Below are positions 6,034 through 61,542 of a stretch of DNA of 64,000 nucleotides, one piece after another; position 1 is the stretch's first letter; each line of letters starts with the position of its first letter. Below the pieces are notes generated by a model. The model was not told the origin of the DNA and searched no databases. It saw only the letters and a program-made list of their open reading frames with translations. The DNA is from Natrarchaeobius chitinivorans (lineage in GTDB: Archaea > Halobacteriota > Halobacteria > Halobacteriales > Natrialbaceae), in assembly GCF_003841505.1 (NCBI RefSeq), contig NZ_REGA01000014.1, positions 1 through 64,000 on the forward strand, in the 5' to 3' direction. The position numbers were made by a program, and so were the translations under genes.

Positions 6034-6120
6034 TCATACGGATTACTGTCCCTGTGTCCCGGCGCACCCGCCAACCGGGTCGTGGGTACGCCGGCAATGA
6101 CGGACAGTATCCCGTATCAG
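6034..6120. repeat. dispersed palindromic element (family 1), downstream of rpl15e
   Basis: Ends are TCATACGGATTACTGTCC and GGACAGTATCCCGTATCA, inverted copies with one mismatch or more. An inner inverted repeat (CCGGCGCACCCG / GGGTACGCCGG) lies between them. This is a full-length member of the family annotated at several other intergenic sites in the window. It lies 24 nt after the rpl15e stop. Confidence 0.8.
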
Positions 6121-24244: not shown

Positions 24245-24374
24245 CGACACGGATTGCTGTACCGATTTTCCGACGCACCCGCCGCCCGGGTCGCGGGTGC
24301 GCCGGACGTGACTACAGTAAATCGTACGGTGCTGACAGTTAACCGTCTGATGCCGACAGTAAACCGTCTGATAC
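24245..24374. repeat. compound palindromic element (family 1) upstream of lutC
   Basis: A full unit, CGACACGGATTGCTGT (24245-24260) to ACAGTAAATCGTACGG (24314-24329), surrounds an inner palindrome of CGACGCACCCGC / GCGGGTGCGCCG. Two further right-end half copies follow in tandem: GACAGTTAACCGTCTGATG at 24334 and GACAGTAAACCGTCTGATAC at 24355. This is the only multi-end copy in the window. Confidence 0.75.
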
Positions 24375-41479: not shown

Positions 41480-41553
41480 TACGGATTACTGTACCGGAGC
41501 GACCGCGTGACGGTGCCCGGTCTTCGGAAGCATCGTACAGCAATCCGTATCAG
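41477..41553. repeat. palindromic element (family 1) at epimerase stop
   Basis: Left end TGATACGGATTACTGTACCGG, where TGA (41477-41479) is the stop of the epimerase; right end GTACAGCAATCCGTATCAG. A near-perfect inverted pair with one difference. Inner part CGGTGCCCGG. Confidence 0.8.
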
Positions 41554-46377: not shown

Positions 46378-46462
46378 TCATACGGATTGCTGTCACTGTG
46401 TACCGGGGCGACCGGGTGCCGTCCTGCGGTCCTCGGAAATAACTCACAGTAAACCGTCTCAG
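46378..46462. repeat. palindromic element (family 1) after rdfA
   Basis: Left end TCATACGGATTGCTGTCAC, right end CACAGTAAACCGTCTCAG. The inner part is CGGGGCGACCGGGTGCC. Located between rdfA and the HTH-10 regulator, which are convergent; its right end reaches into the regulator's stop region (46459). Confidence 0.75.
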
Positions 46463-47193: not shown

Positions 47194-48963
47194 ATGGCAA
47201 CCGAATCGAACCGCGACGACTCCACCGCGCCGAGCGAACAGTGGCGCGAGTATCAGGGTGCTCCCACGGGGACGGATCGTGAGTGTCGGGGCTGGCGACA
47301 GGAAGCCGCGTTCCGCCTGCTCAACAACAACCTCGACCCGGAGGTCGCCGAGAAACCCGAAGAGTTGATCGTCTACGGTGGCACCGGTCGTGCGGCGCGA
47401 TCGTGGGACGCATACGACGCGATCCTCGAGGAGCTTCGGGAACTCGCCGCCGACGAAACGTTGCTGGTCCAGTCGGGCAAGCCCGTCGGTCGGTTTCGAA
47501 CCCACGAACGCGCACCGCGGGTACTGATCGCCAACTCCAACCTCGTCGGCAACTGGGACACCTGGGAGCACTTCCACGAACTCGAAGCCGAGGGGCTGAT
47601 CATGTACGGGCAGATGACCGCCGGATCGTGGGCGTACATCGGCACACAGGGGATCCTCCAGGGGACCTTCGAGACGCTCGCGGAACTGGCTCGCCAGGAG
47701 TTCGACGGGGATCTCGAGGGGCGGATCGTCGTCACCGGCGGGCTCGGCGGAATGGGGGGTGCACAACCGCTCGCGGTCACGATGAATCGCGGCGTCTGTC
47801 TCGCCGCCGAAGTCGACGGAGACCGGATCGATCGGCGGGTGGAAACCGGCTACTGCATGGAGCGGATCGACGATCTCGCCGAGGCGATAGACCGGTGTCA
47901 GGCGGCCGCCGCTGCGAGTGAGCCCTACAGCGTCGGCGTCCGGATCAACGCCGCCGATCTGCTCGAGGGGCTGCTCGAACGCGGGTTCGTCCCGGACGTG
48001 GTTACCGATCAGACGAGCGCCCACGACGCCCTCGAGGGGTACTATCCGTCGGGATACGCAGTCGAAGAGGCCGATCGGCTCCGTGAGCAAGACCCCGAGC
48101 GCTACGTCGGGGAGTCCCTCGAGACGATGGAGCGCCACGTCGACGGGATCCTCTCGTTGCAGGATCGGGGAGCGATCGCCTTCGAGTACGGCAACAACAT
48201 CCGCGGGCAAGTACGCGAGGAGCGCGGAATGGAGTCGGCGTTCGACTTCCCCGGATTCGTCCCCGCGTACATCCGCCCGCAGTTCTGTCGAGGGAAGGGC
48301 CCGTTCCGGTGGCTCGCACTGTCGGGCGACCCCGAAGACATCCACCGGACCGACGAGGCGGTTCTCGAACTGTTTCCCGAGAAGGATCACCTTCGCCGCT
48401 GGATCGAACTCGCCCAGGAGCGGGTCCAGTTCCAGGGGCTGCCGAGTCGGGTCTGCTGGCTCGGGTACGAAACGGACGACTCCGATGGGCGGTACGAACG
48501 GCCGGACGACCAGCGGGGGGAACTGACCGAACGCGCGCGCTTTGCCCTCCGGATCAACGACCTCGTCGCCGACGGCGAGATCACTGCGCCGATCGTCGTC
48601 ACTCGAGACCACCTCGATGCGGGAAGCGTCGCCAGCCCGAACCGCGAGACCGAGGACATGAAAGACGGGACGGACGCCGTCGCGGACTGGCCGATACTCA
48701 ATGCCCTGCTCAACTGCGCCGCCGGGGCGGACATCGTCAGCGTTCACGACGGCGGCGGCGTCGGTATCGGTAACGCGGTCCACGCGAACAACCACGTCGT
48801 GCTGGACGGGACCGACCTCGCAGCCGAGAAGGCGGCCGCGGTGTTCACCACCGACCCAGGGAGCGGCGTAATCCGTCACGCCGACGCCGGCTACGAGGAC
48901 GCACTCGAGGAAGCCGAGCGATCGGGCGTTCGGATTCCCATGCGGGAGGCGAGCGGAGAATGA
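47194..48963 (+). CDS. hutU: urocanate hydratase
   Basis: 589 residues. Starts [20 protein letters not shown]; contains [20 protein letters not shown], the NAD-binding core [18 protein letters not shown], and [18 protein letters not shown] near the C-terminus. It converts urocanate to 4-imidazolone-5-propanoate with bound NAD. Length fits the family (about 555-680). It overlaps hutG by 4 nt. Confidence 0.96.
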
Positions 48964-49979
48964 ACCCTCCATCCACCAACCGCGGACTCGACGGCGAGCG
49001 TGGGGAGGAACCCGCGTTCAGCCGTCCCGACTGGGAGGGGTGGCGCGGCTCCTCGAGCGATCCGAACGACAGACAGTTCGGCGACGGTATCGAGGCCGTC
49101 GATCCCGGGAGAGCCGACGACTGCGACGTCGTCCTCGTCGGCGAACCCTACGACGGTGCCGTGATCGGCCGACGGGGGGCACGCGAAGGACCCGCCGCGA
49201 TTCGTCGCTCGCTCGCCGGCGTGAAGACCGCCCACCTGACCGCGGGAGATCCGACTCTCGACGCGAACGGCGACGGGGAACCATCGCAAGTCCGAATCGG
49301 CGACCTGGGCGACCTCGAGTTGCCCGACGGGAGCGTTTCCGAGGTCCACGACTGGATCCGCGACGTCGCCAAATGGGTTCACGATTCGAGTGCAGTTCCG
49401 GTATTCCTCGGCGGCGACAACTCGCTTTCCGCACCCAACGTCTCGCCGCTGCTCTCGACGGGGAACGTCGCGGTCGTCAACCTCGACGCACATCTCGACT
49501 GTCGCGAACTCCGCGACGGGCCGACCAGCGGGACGCCCTACCGGCAACTGCTCGAGGCCGGCCTCGAGACGTACGTCCCCGTCGGTGTGCGCCACTTCGA
49601 GACCTCGAGTCCGTACGTCGAGTTCGTCCAGGAGCGGGGCGGGACGATCGTTCCCGCCGACGCGTTCGAGGGTGGCGTCGACGACGTTGCGGCAACCGTC
49701 AGGGACGCGGTCGGCAATATCGATCACCTCTACCTGAGCGTCGACTGTGACGTCCTGGACGCGACGGCTGCACCCGGGGTCAGCGCCCCCACGCCTGGTG
49801 GCCTCTCGACCCGCGAACTGTTCGCGCTGGTATCCGCGCTCGCGGCGAACGATCGACTCGCCGGACTCGAGGTCGTCGAGTGTGCACCGCCGCTCGAGAC
49901 GGGCGGACGTACCGTCGACGCGGCGGCGCGGACGATCGCACACGGAGTGGCCGGTTATCTGGGTGATCGCGATGACTGA
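48960..49979 (+). CDS. hutG: formimidoylglutamase
   Basis: 339 residues. Arginase-like fold with the manganese ligands in FLGGDNSLS (Asp), [10 protein letters not shown] (DxHxD), and [18 protein letters not shown] (DxD). It hydrolyses N-formimidoyl-glutamate to glutamate and formamide. The ATG overlaps the hutU stop by 4 nt, and the end overlaps hutI by 8 nt, so the three are one operon. Confidence 0.93.
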
Positions 49980-51246
49980 GTCGCAGTACGGCATCGTCTA
50001 CGGTGCGAACGAACTGGTCGTCGGGCCGGACGAGACGGTGACGACTTCCGGCGACGGCCCAAGGGACGAACTCGCGGCGACCGAACCCGGCCCGCTGCGA
50101 CTCGAGGGCGAGGGCGCGGTCGTCTTCGAGGACGGGCGCGTCGTTGCGGTCGGGGACGGCGACGAACTCGCCCGGGAGTATCCACCCGAAAACGCGGAAA
50201 CTGCCGTCGACGCGGACGGTGGCTGTGTCCTCCCCGGCTTCGTCGATCCACACACGCACGCGGTATTCGCGGGGGATCGGTCGGACGAGTTCGCGGCGAA
50301 GCTCAGGGGAAAGAGCTACCAGAAGATTCTCGCCGAGGGCGGCGGCATTCTGCGGACGGTTCGGGCGGTTCGAGAGACGCCCGAGGACGACCTCGTCGCG
50401 GACCTGTGTGAGCGCCTCGACGCAATGCTCGCACGCGGAACGACGACGGTAGAGGTCAAATCGGGCTACGGCCTCGACGTCGAGACCGAACTAAAAACTC
50501 TCTCGGCGATCGACCGCGCCGATCGGAGCCACCCCGTCGACGTCGTCCCGACGTTTATGGGTGCTCACGCGGTCCCGGGCGGGAGCGACGCCGAGCGCTA
50601 CACCGACCGCGTGATCGAGGAGCAACTGCCAGCAGTCGCCGACCAGGGAATCGCCGAGTTCTGCGACGTCTTCTGTGAGGAGGACGTGTTCTCGGTCGAG
50701 CAATCCCGTCGGATCCTCGAGGCCGGCACCGAGTACGGACTGACGCCGAAGATCCACACCGACGAGTTCGCGAACCTCGGCGGGACGCGACTCGCCGCTG
50801 ACGTCTCGGCCGCGAGCGCCGATCACCTCCTCCAGTCGACGGACGCGGATATCGATGCGCTCCTCTCCGAGGACGTCACACCGGTACTGCTGCCCGGCAC
50901 TGCCTTCGGACTCGGCGGCGAGTACCCGGATCTCGAGCCCTACCGCGAGCGCGATGCGGTCCCCGCGATCGGGACTGACTTCAACCCGAACTGCTACGCG
51001 CTGAGCATGGGCTTTGCCGCGACGCTGGCCTGCGTCGGGGTCGGTATGACTCCGGCAGAGGCGGTCCTCGGGATCACCGCCCACGGTGCCGCCGCGCTCG
51101 ATCGTGAGGGGGGGCTCGGGACCCTCGAGGTCGGATCACCGGCCGATCTCGTCGTTCTCGACGCGCCGACGCACGCGCATCTCCCTTACAGGTACGACGT
51201 CGACGCGGTCGAGTCGGTACTCAAAGGCGGTGACGTCGTGAGCTGA
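49972..51246 (+). CDS. hutI: imidazolonepropionase
   Basis: 424 residues. Starts [20 protein letters not shown]; amidohydrolase motifs [13 protein letters not shown] (HxH), [24 protein letters not shown] (His and metal), and [20 protein letters not shown] (Asp). It hydrolyses imidazolone-propanoate to formimino-glutamate. The ATG at 49972 overlaps the hutG end by 8 nt. The next gene in the usual haloarchaeal order would be hutH, which is not found here. Confidence 0.93.
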
Positions 51247-51532
51247 TGGCGGCAATCGCCAGCGCTGCCGGATTCGCGGTCGGGGCGACCGAAGTCGTCT
51301 CGGTCGGTGAGTTGCCACCCTCGACTGATAGGGATTATCGTAGGAGTTCATAGTTTCCCGCTGAAGAACCGAGACACAGTGTCGAGGGCCCGGTTCCGAG
51401 ACCTCCGGGAGGCTACGATAATCCCTATGAAACCTCCGGTCGACGACGACCGTCGGACGGAGTCGACGTCGATATCCGCCCCCGGCTGTTGCAGGCAGTA
51501 GCTGCTTGCCTCGAGTGCTGGAACCGGAGCGT
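51247..51532. other. spacer downstream of hutI, no hutH
   Basis: 286 bp. A short open frame ([16 protein letters not shown]...) starts at 51246 but stops after about 35 residues inside the inverted-repeat element. It shows no hutH similarity. The region is dominated by the 51325-51430 inverted repeat. Confidence 0.55.
51325..51430. repeat. inverted repeat element, diverged member of family 1
   Basis: TGATAGGGATTATCGTAG (51325-51342) and CTACGATAATCCCTATGA (51413-51430) form a 16-bp perfect inverted pair plus flank. The ends resemble the family-1 end (TGATACGGATTACTGT) in register. The inner part has a shorter inverted pair, CCCTCGACACT-like, and differs from other copies. Confidence 0.65.
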
Positions 51533-52063
51533 ATGGCTCCCAGGTTTTCACTGGAGGATCGTGGCAAATCCGTCGTGAACGCGACCGGCGAACTGATCGG
51601 AACGATCACGGCCGTCGACGAGGACGTTGCCCACGTTCGGCCGGCGGAGGGAATCGTCGACACGATCAAATCCTCGCTCGGCTGGGACAGCAACGCGGAC
51701 GTGACGATGCCGCTCGAGCGCGAGTGGGTCGCCGAGATCACCGACGAGACGGTTCGACTCGAGGGAGAACACCTCTCGGGAAACCGGGCGGAGACGGATC
51801 CGAAAACGGGCGAGACCGACCACGATCGGATCGACGACGCGACATCCGACGAGGCCACGAATCGCGGTCTCGAGGGCGACCCGACCGAATTGACCGAGGA
51901 CGACTCCGGGTTCGAACTGCATCCCGACGATGTGGACGGGCGGACGGACGCCGAAGTCGACCCGGAGGACGCGAGCGCTCGAGCCGACGCCGAAGTCGAT
52001 CCGATCCCGGAATCGTCCGGATCGACCGCTGACGAGCGATCCGGTTCGGAAAACGACCGATAG
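51533..52063 (+). CDS. PRC-barrel-like acidic protein
   Basis: 176 residues. The first 85 residues (FSLEDRGKSVVNATGELIGT, EDVAHVRPAEG, WDSNADVTMPLEREW) have the PRC-barrel-like pattern. The remainder is acidic, low in structure (ETDHDRIDDATSDEATNRG and following), with repeats of DAEVDP. Function unknown; PRC barrels often bind partners in RNA or photosynthetic proteins. ATG 51533 chosen over a frame start 27 nt upstream. Confidence 0.72.
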   Translation: MAPRFSLEDRGKSVVNATGELIGTITAVDEDVAHVRPAEGIVDTIKSSLGWDSNADVTMPLEREWVAEITDETVRLEGEHLSGNRAETDPKTGETDHDRIDDATSDEATNRGLEGDPTELTEDDSGFELHPDDVDGRTDAEVDPEDASARADAEVDPIPESSGSTADERSGSENDR

Positions 52064-56152: not shown

Positions 56153-56239
56153 TCATACGGTTTACTGTCAGTCCTTACCGGCGCATCCGCGACCAGAGCG
56201 GCGGGTGCGCCGGTAAACAGTGACAGTAATCCGTATCAG
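56153..56239. repeat. palindromic element (family 1) with perfect inner palindrome
   Basis: Ends TCATACGGTTTACTGTCAGT and GTGACAGTAATCCGTATCAG. Inner arms TTACCGGCGCATCCGC and GCGGGTGCGCCGGTAA are almost perfectly complementary. The TCA within the right end is the complement of the stop of the minus-strand gene ending at 56236. Confidence 0.8.
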
Positions 56240-61457: not shown

Positions 61458-61542
61458 TGATACGGATTGCTGTTACTGTGTGCCGGAGTGACCGAGCGTC
61501 GCCCCGCGGCGCTCCGGTACTAACGTACAGTAAACCGTATGA
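61458..61542. repeat. palindromic element (family 1) upstream of the spermidine-synthase-like gene
   Basis: Left end TGATACGGATTGCTGTTAC, right end TACAGTAAACCGTATGA. Inner GCCGGAGTGACCG and CGGCGCTCCGGT form a partial inner palindrome. It lies between genes, 68 nt from the spermidine-synthase-like start, and does not overlap a stop codon. Confidence 0.8.

Follow-up and report, generated by a model that had tools for sequence, protein, structure and literature searches.

Among archaeal MITEs assigned to the IS5 family, one from Methanosarcina acetivorans is listed with ISMma12, with a length of 140 bp, 24 copies, an inverted repeat (IR) of 16, and a direct repeat (DR) of 3 (PMC3852290). For the IS1031 group of the IS5 family, the sections of PMC12016507 consulted describe a preference for the target 5′-TNA-3′ and an exclusive 3-bp direct repeat. 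MITEs that lack a functional partner are known from Haloquadratum (PMC3119063). The relevant sections of that publication present SMR-A as an element of about 110 bp with prominent terminal repeats and many copies, without a recognised mobiliser, that inserts into palindromes of other elements; the Haloquadratum SMRs are reported to lack target duplications.

Here, an element located downstream of the imidazolonepropionase gene hutI of Natrarchaeobius chitinivorans is compared with these systems. It lies within the 64,000-nucleotide stretch of DNA that was analyzed, referred to as the window, and is very probably a MITE, i.e., a 99-bp gene-less copy of a non-autonomous DNA transposon. We assign it to this class because it has terminal repeats, 3-bp target-site duplications, and many copies, and because it takes part in nested insertions that can be emptied.

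Results

The inverted repeat on which the original prediction was based is present with both arms as claimed: positions 51328 to 51343 pair with positions 51413 to 51428 in a perfect stem of 16 bp. When the window was searched with the 15-mer at up to 3 mismatches, for which 0.44 matches are expected by chance, only the two exact arms were recovered. In the whole genome, the 16-mer (up to 3 mismatches) gave 33 forward and 34 reverse matches, compared to 3 and 1 for a reversed control. The ends of the unit were set by alignment of the copies, resulting in a non-coding sequence of 99 bp at positions 51329 to 51427 (TAGGGATTATCGTAG...CTACGATAATCCCTA). Specifically, the left terminal inverted repeat TAGGGATTATCGTAG (51329 to 51343, plus strand) matches the right one, its reverse complement (51413 to 51427, minus strand), perfectly over 15 bp, and such repeats recur in other genomes. 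The intervening core of 69 bp (51344 to 51412, minus strand) is likewise non-coding and was compared with copies from other genera, in which the subterminal motifs CTATGAAC and CCnnCCGGA, read on the minus strand of the window, recur as judged by eye. The triplet TGA flanks the unit on the left (51326 to 51328) and on the right (51428 to 51430) as a 3-bp repeat without strand, forming a direct duplication outside the palindrome, and the 16th base pair of the stem consists of one base of this repeat from each side. Of the earlier description, in which the TGA ends were part of the stem, the 15-bp terminal repeat therefore stands, whereas the TGA ends are a target-site duplication. Target duplication, and not pairing, also accounts for the way in which the outermost base of the stem co-varies (A..T or T..A).

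A covariance model built from 21 copies of the N. chitinivorans genome gave 30 matches in that genome (32 candidates scored, 21 copies inspected singly), so that the search for further copies suggested in the original prediction was productive. The weakest of these matches may be copies of sister families; one match, for example, C16:31407-31504, overlaps a terminus like that of family 1, a family described below. Model matches were present in 34 of 125 genomes and 13 of 29 genera of the family (E ≤ 0.01), and, across the order, in 64 of the 392 genomes sampled and 26 of 95 genera (E ≤ 0.001, with scoring limited to 10 candidates per genome). The copies carry no transposase gene and are dispersed; 49 of 50 measure 95 to 101 bp and one measures 90 bp, a uniformity that is partly the result of selection, as full-length copies had been picked. 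Core identity between copies of the own genome and those of other genomes has a median of 67%, compared to 42% for shuffled cores. The window copy looks recent, because among nine own copies with which it was compared, the nearest, at C5:121361-121459, differs from it at only 1 of 99 positions.

Thirteen copies were picked from named records among the matches listed in a scan of a contig collection, many of the listed matches being single 15-mers in bacteria; 11 of the 13 have identical 3-bp flanks. Copies with identical flanks include those of Natrialba sp. SSL1, Natronosalvus hydrolyticus, Halalkalirubrum salinum, Haloferax larsenii, and Salinadaptatus halalkaliphilus, and Halobium salinum has a 77-bp form with identical 3-bp flanks; the flanks in stretch L339 (TCA/TAG) do not match. 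One plasmid record, NZ_CP101160 of Natronosalvus amylolyticus, contains the element (L326:2499-2600). The first base of this match is also the last base of an annotated methyl-accepting chemotaxis gene, whose stop codon thus seems to be formed by the triplet flanking the element on the left. Phage records gave no match to the element. Forty-nine stretches of viral contigs contain an exact 15-mer, which we take as chance: in the viral stretches searched, the best second arm within 60 to 140 bp has 5 mismatches (L280, L285, and L324), and none has matching 3-bp flanks.

For the analysis of target sites, 30 stretches of the own genome were fetched, of which nine (L015, L030 to L032, and L034 to L038) were set aside as having one arm, being decayed, or being coding; three of these nine were in a first alignment, and identical 3-bp flanks were found in 0 of the 3. 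The remaining copies were combined with the best match of each of 29 other genomes. Identical 3-bp flanks occur in 33 of these 50 full-length copies (14 of 21 from the own genome and 19 of 29 from other genomes), compared to 560 of 2,450 (23%) in a control in which the left flank of one copy was paired with the right flank of another. The 33 duplications consist of 15 TGA, 14 TCA, 3 ACT, and 1 AGT, i.e., 29 are of the TNA type. C precedes 21 and G follows 22 of these 29 TNA duplications, and the full context CTGAG or CTCAG is found in 14 of the 33. The triplets are non-identical in 17 of the 50 copies. In four of these 17 (L025, L093, L095, and L099) the flanks are reverse-complementary (AGT/ACT or TGA/TCA), possibly as marks of an inversion between two inverted copies. 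Separately, 100-bp copies in L164, L189, L258, and at L234:757-856 show TA...TA flanks in place of TNA...TNA, which suggests a 2-bp duplication in some hosts.

The element had originally been proposed as a possible second subfamily next to family 1, and this view was supported: the termini TACGGATTACTGTA (family 1) and TAGGGATTATCGTA (element) agree at 11 of 14 bases, both families make 3-bp duplications that are mostly TCA or TGA, and each is found inserted in the other. Family-1 elements lie in the window at positions 6037 to 6116, 41480 to 41549, 46381 to 46458, 56156 to 56235, and 61461 to 61539, and elsewhere. Sixteen distinct paired copies were considered, six from the window and ten from other stretches of the same genome; the flanks are identical in 11 of the 16 (4 of the 6 in the window), in every case TCA or TGA. 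G follows in 9 of these 11 duplications, and the full CTNAG is present in 4 only. Genome-wide, 297 family-1 termini were counted in forward and 307 in reverse orientation, with 0 and 0 in the control, which corresponds to about 300 copies, compared to about 30 of the element. Family 1 further differs from the element in being mostly 70 to 80 bp long and near-palindromic throughout. Its members appear to be a sister MITE family of very high abundance, with no known mobiliser. At positions 24248 to 24370 of the window, one forward and three reverse family-1 termini are clustered within about 120 bp, apparently as a nested or composite structure.

Among the 21 own copies, four (L012, L019, L022, and L023) sit within family-1 elements, and removal of 99 plus 3 bp from these nested copies restores a family-1 sequence. 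The emptied sites of L019 and L023 align to family-1 copies of the window over 80 bp with 90 and 85% identity, respectively; that of L012 gives a family-1 alignment of 82 bp (82%) and that of L022, with the flanks TGA/TGC, one of 52 bp (85%). The reverse nesting is seen in Salinadaptatus halalkaliphilus (L233:1548-1730), where a family-1 copy flanked by TCA/TCA lies within an element copy of 183 bp flanked by ACT/ACT. The simplest reading of the two families would be that they use a shared or related transposase.

An autonomous partner was sought among transposase genes. For PF01609, the commonest transposase domain searched, the N. chitinivorans genome has 18 matches, compared to about 300 copies of family 1. 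No PF01609 locus bounded by the element terminus was found among 49 of the 123 matches in seven genomes (30 loci and 19 further stretches); the filter demanded GG at terminus positions 4 and 5 together with a duplication of the form TNA or ANT, and would therefore miss a partner alike only at the last few bases. What the scan did bring up were two short elements paired with each other or weak matches attributable to chance. PF13359 was absent from all seven genomes searched (0 of 7), PF13586 gave only two sub-threshold matches in 10 genomes, and PF13340, a domain typical of IS1031-type transposases, was matched once in 125 genomes, below threshold.

Two insertion sequences (IS) were considered as partners and rejected. 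An IS of about 1,064 bp with the terminus GAGGGTGTCATAGAAC was dismissed on the basis of nine copies in genome G079, which show other, longer flanking repeats, and an IS5-like element next to a truncated copy in L037 has a different terminus. Note that the nine G079 copies (L327 to L335; about 1,064 bp, terminus GGGTGTCATAGAA) are near-identical and that their flanks suggest a longer duplication; in one of them, L329, the left flank is family-1-like.

The element might also be a Haloquadratum-type SMR, moved by an unrecognised enzyme and not by an IS5-type transposase, a reading that is compatible with a MITE in the wide sense and that we regard as possible but somewhat unlikely. Its length of about 99 bp, the failure to find a partner, and the four own copies nested in near-palindromic family-1 elements are consistent with it. 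What argues against it are the target duplications of the element copies, as SMRs are described in PMC3119063 as having none.

A conserved structured RNA or a transcription terminator of the hut operon, in which the stem would matter as folded RNA, was considered as well. The position just after hutI would suit such a function, and the 107-nucleotide stretch folds better than its shuffled versions (z of -3.3; none of 200 shuffles did as well). Complementary double changes in the terminal stem are more frequent than expected under independence (15 compared to 5.6), an excess that shared ancestry within sub-groups can cause. However, among the 750 pair cells of the 50 copies, 107 are changed in one arm only (15 of them to G-U), and where both arms are changed, non-complementary cells are as numerous as complementary ones (15 each). 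Moreover, the element has no match in Rfam, and its copies are found at many unrelated sites with target duplications. An RNA function is thus disfavored and appears very unlikely. The Rfam search returned one weak miRNA hit outside the element, taken as chance.

At the hut locus, hutI is intact (49978 to 51246, plus strand; translation may actually start a few codons before 49978), and the element begins 82 bases past its stop codon, in agreement with the placement right after hutI given in the original prediction. The genes hutU, hutG, and hutI lie upstream of the element; downstream follow a gene for a protein of 173 amino acids without a Pfam match (51542 to 52063, plus strand) and then an acyl-CoA dehydrogenase gene. 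The search for hutH elsewhere in the genome, as had been proposed, revealed a single, intact gene on another contig (C12:29399-30889). Among 125 genomes of the family, hutH is present in 72 and hutI in 71. With adjacency defined as location on the same strand within 1 kb, 74 HutI rows including that of the window were compared: hutH directly follows hutI in none of the nine rows nearest to that of the window (70 to 73% identity) and in 54 of the 64 others. In a HutI tree of 30 loci taken from the 74 rows, the window and its nine nearest relatives form one group with a support of 100/100. The element was not found within 1.5 kb of hutI in any of these nine loci, and three of the nine genomes (G011, G095, and G096) have model matches elsewhere. 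A single unpaired match with 4 mismatches near hutI in L057 was taken as chance. Six HutH sequences, four of them partial, revealed no HutH remnant at positions 51201 to 51560 (E ≤ 10). A frame overlapping the hutI stop codon was considered as the start of an interrupted gene and dropped, having no convincing relative in the nine loci of the group (best E of 0.24).

It had been proposed that the element replaced or displaced hutH, with the provision that the link would be a coincidence if related genomes lacked both hutH and the element at this site; the nine nearest loci lack both, and as no HutH remnant was detected either, we conclude that the association is coincidental. Replacement or displacement of hutH by insertion or recombination, as might be surmised from the 54 loci with adjacent hutH and from the location of hutH on another contig here, is exceedingly improbable in view of the well-supported group whose nine other members lack both hutH directly after hutI and the element there, the simple TGA/TGA flanks, and the lack of HutH similarity around the element. 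The hutUGI cluster of the window (47194 to 51246) belongs to the HutI clade without adjacent hutH, and the same-genus genomes G038 and G039 have the hutI-hutH type, which suggests that the cluster of the window was replaced or transferred. As to the MITE copy itself, its insertion point was the intergenic region following hutI, where it has no established role.

Discussion

An apparent oddity of an operon has become a family of mobile elements whose ends, target, and length are defined and to which model matches occur in 64 of the sampled genomes of the order, and the interpretation as a MITE accounts for the TGA...TGA sequences around the stem. The element itself is an ordinary kind of thing. 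In the literature searched, which excludes most subscription journals, so that an earlier description is possible, no description of its family was found, and four 14-base segments taken from the termini were absent.

The terminal repeats, the 3-bp duplication, and the uniform copies lead us to infer a DDE-type transposase acting in trans, which may be IS5/IS1031-like and may also serve family 1. Such an enzyme would recognise the terminal repeats of 15 bp, possibly along with the subterminal motifs that recur, and would make a cut staggered by 3 bases in the target, usually around TNA and less often around ACT/AGT; the element would then be joined to the target, and repair of the gaps would double the three bases. 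The family also makes it possible to ask concretely what moves the abundant gene-less repeats of haloarchaea, for which the scan gave no enzyme with matching ends. It is conceivable, though rather doubtful, that the element and family 1, possibly together with the SMRs of Haloquadratum, constitute a single order-wide superfamily of orphan elements of about 70 to 110 bp in the Halobacteriales, whose length and motifs would be kept through a still unrecognised transposase with the target TNA (often C-TNA-G) and a 3-bp stagger.

Compared by description and not by sequence, the element resembles the archaeal IS5-family MITEs as presented in the part of PMC3852290 considered in being short, gene-less, and multicopy, with terminal repeats of 15 to 16 bp and 3-bp direct repeats; unlike these, it is shorter, occurs in the Halobacteriales, and has no partner among those sought. 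With the IS1031 group it shares the 3-bp TNA duplication and the target TGA, whereas it has no transposase and its terminus is unlike the one quoted in the sections of PMC12016507 consulted. We do not file it as an IS1031 derivative because no IS1031-type transposase with matching termini was found among the loci and genomes scanned. The likeness to SMR-A of Haloquadratum walsbyi, again by description, comprises a length of about 100 bp, conspicuous repeats at the termini, a high copy number, insertion into palindromic mobile elements, and the lack of a recognised mobiliser; the element differs in making 3-bp target duplications, of which SMRs reportedly have none in the portion of PMC3119063 concerned. 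Accordingly, the element is filed as a MITE and neither as an IS1031 derivative nor as an SMR.
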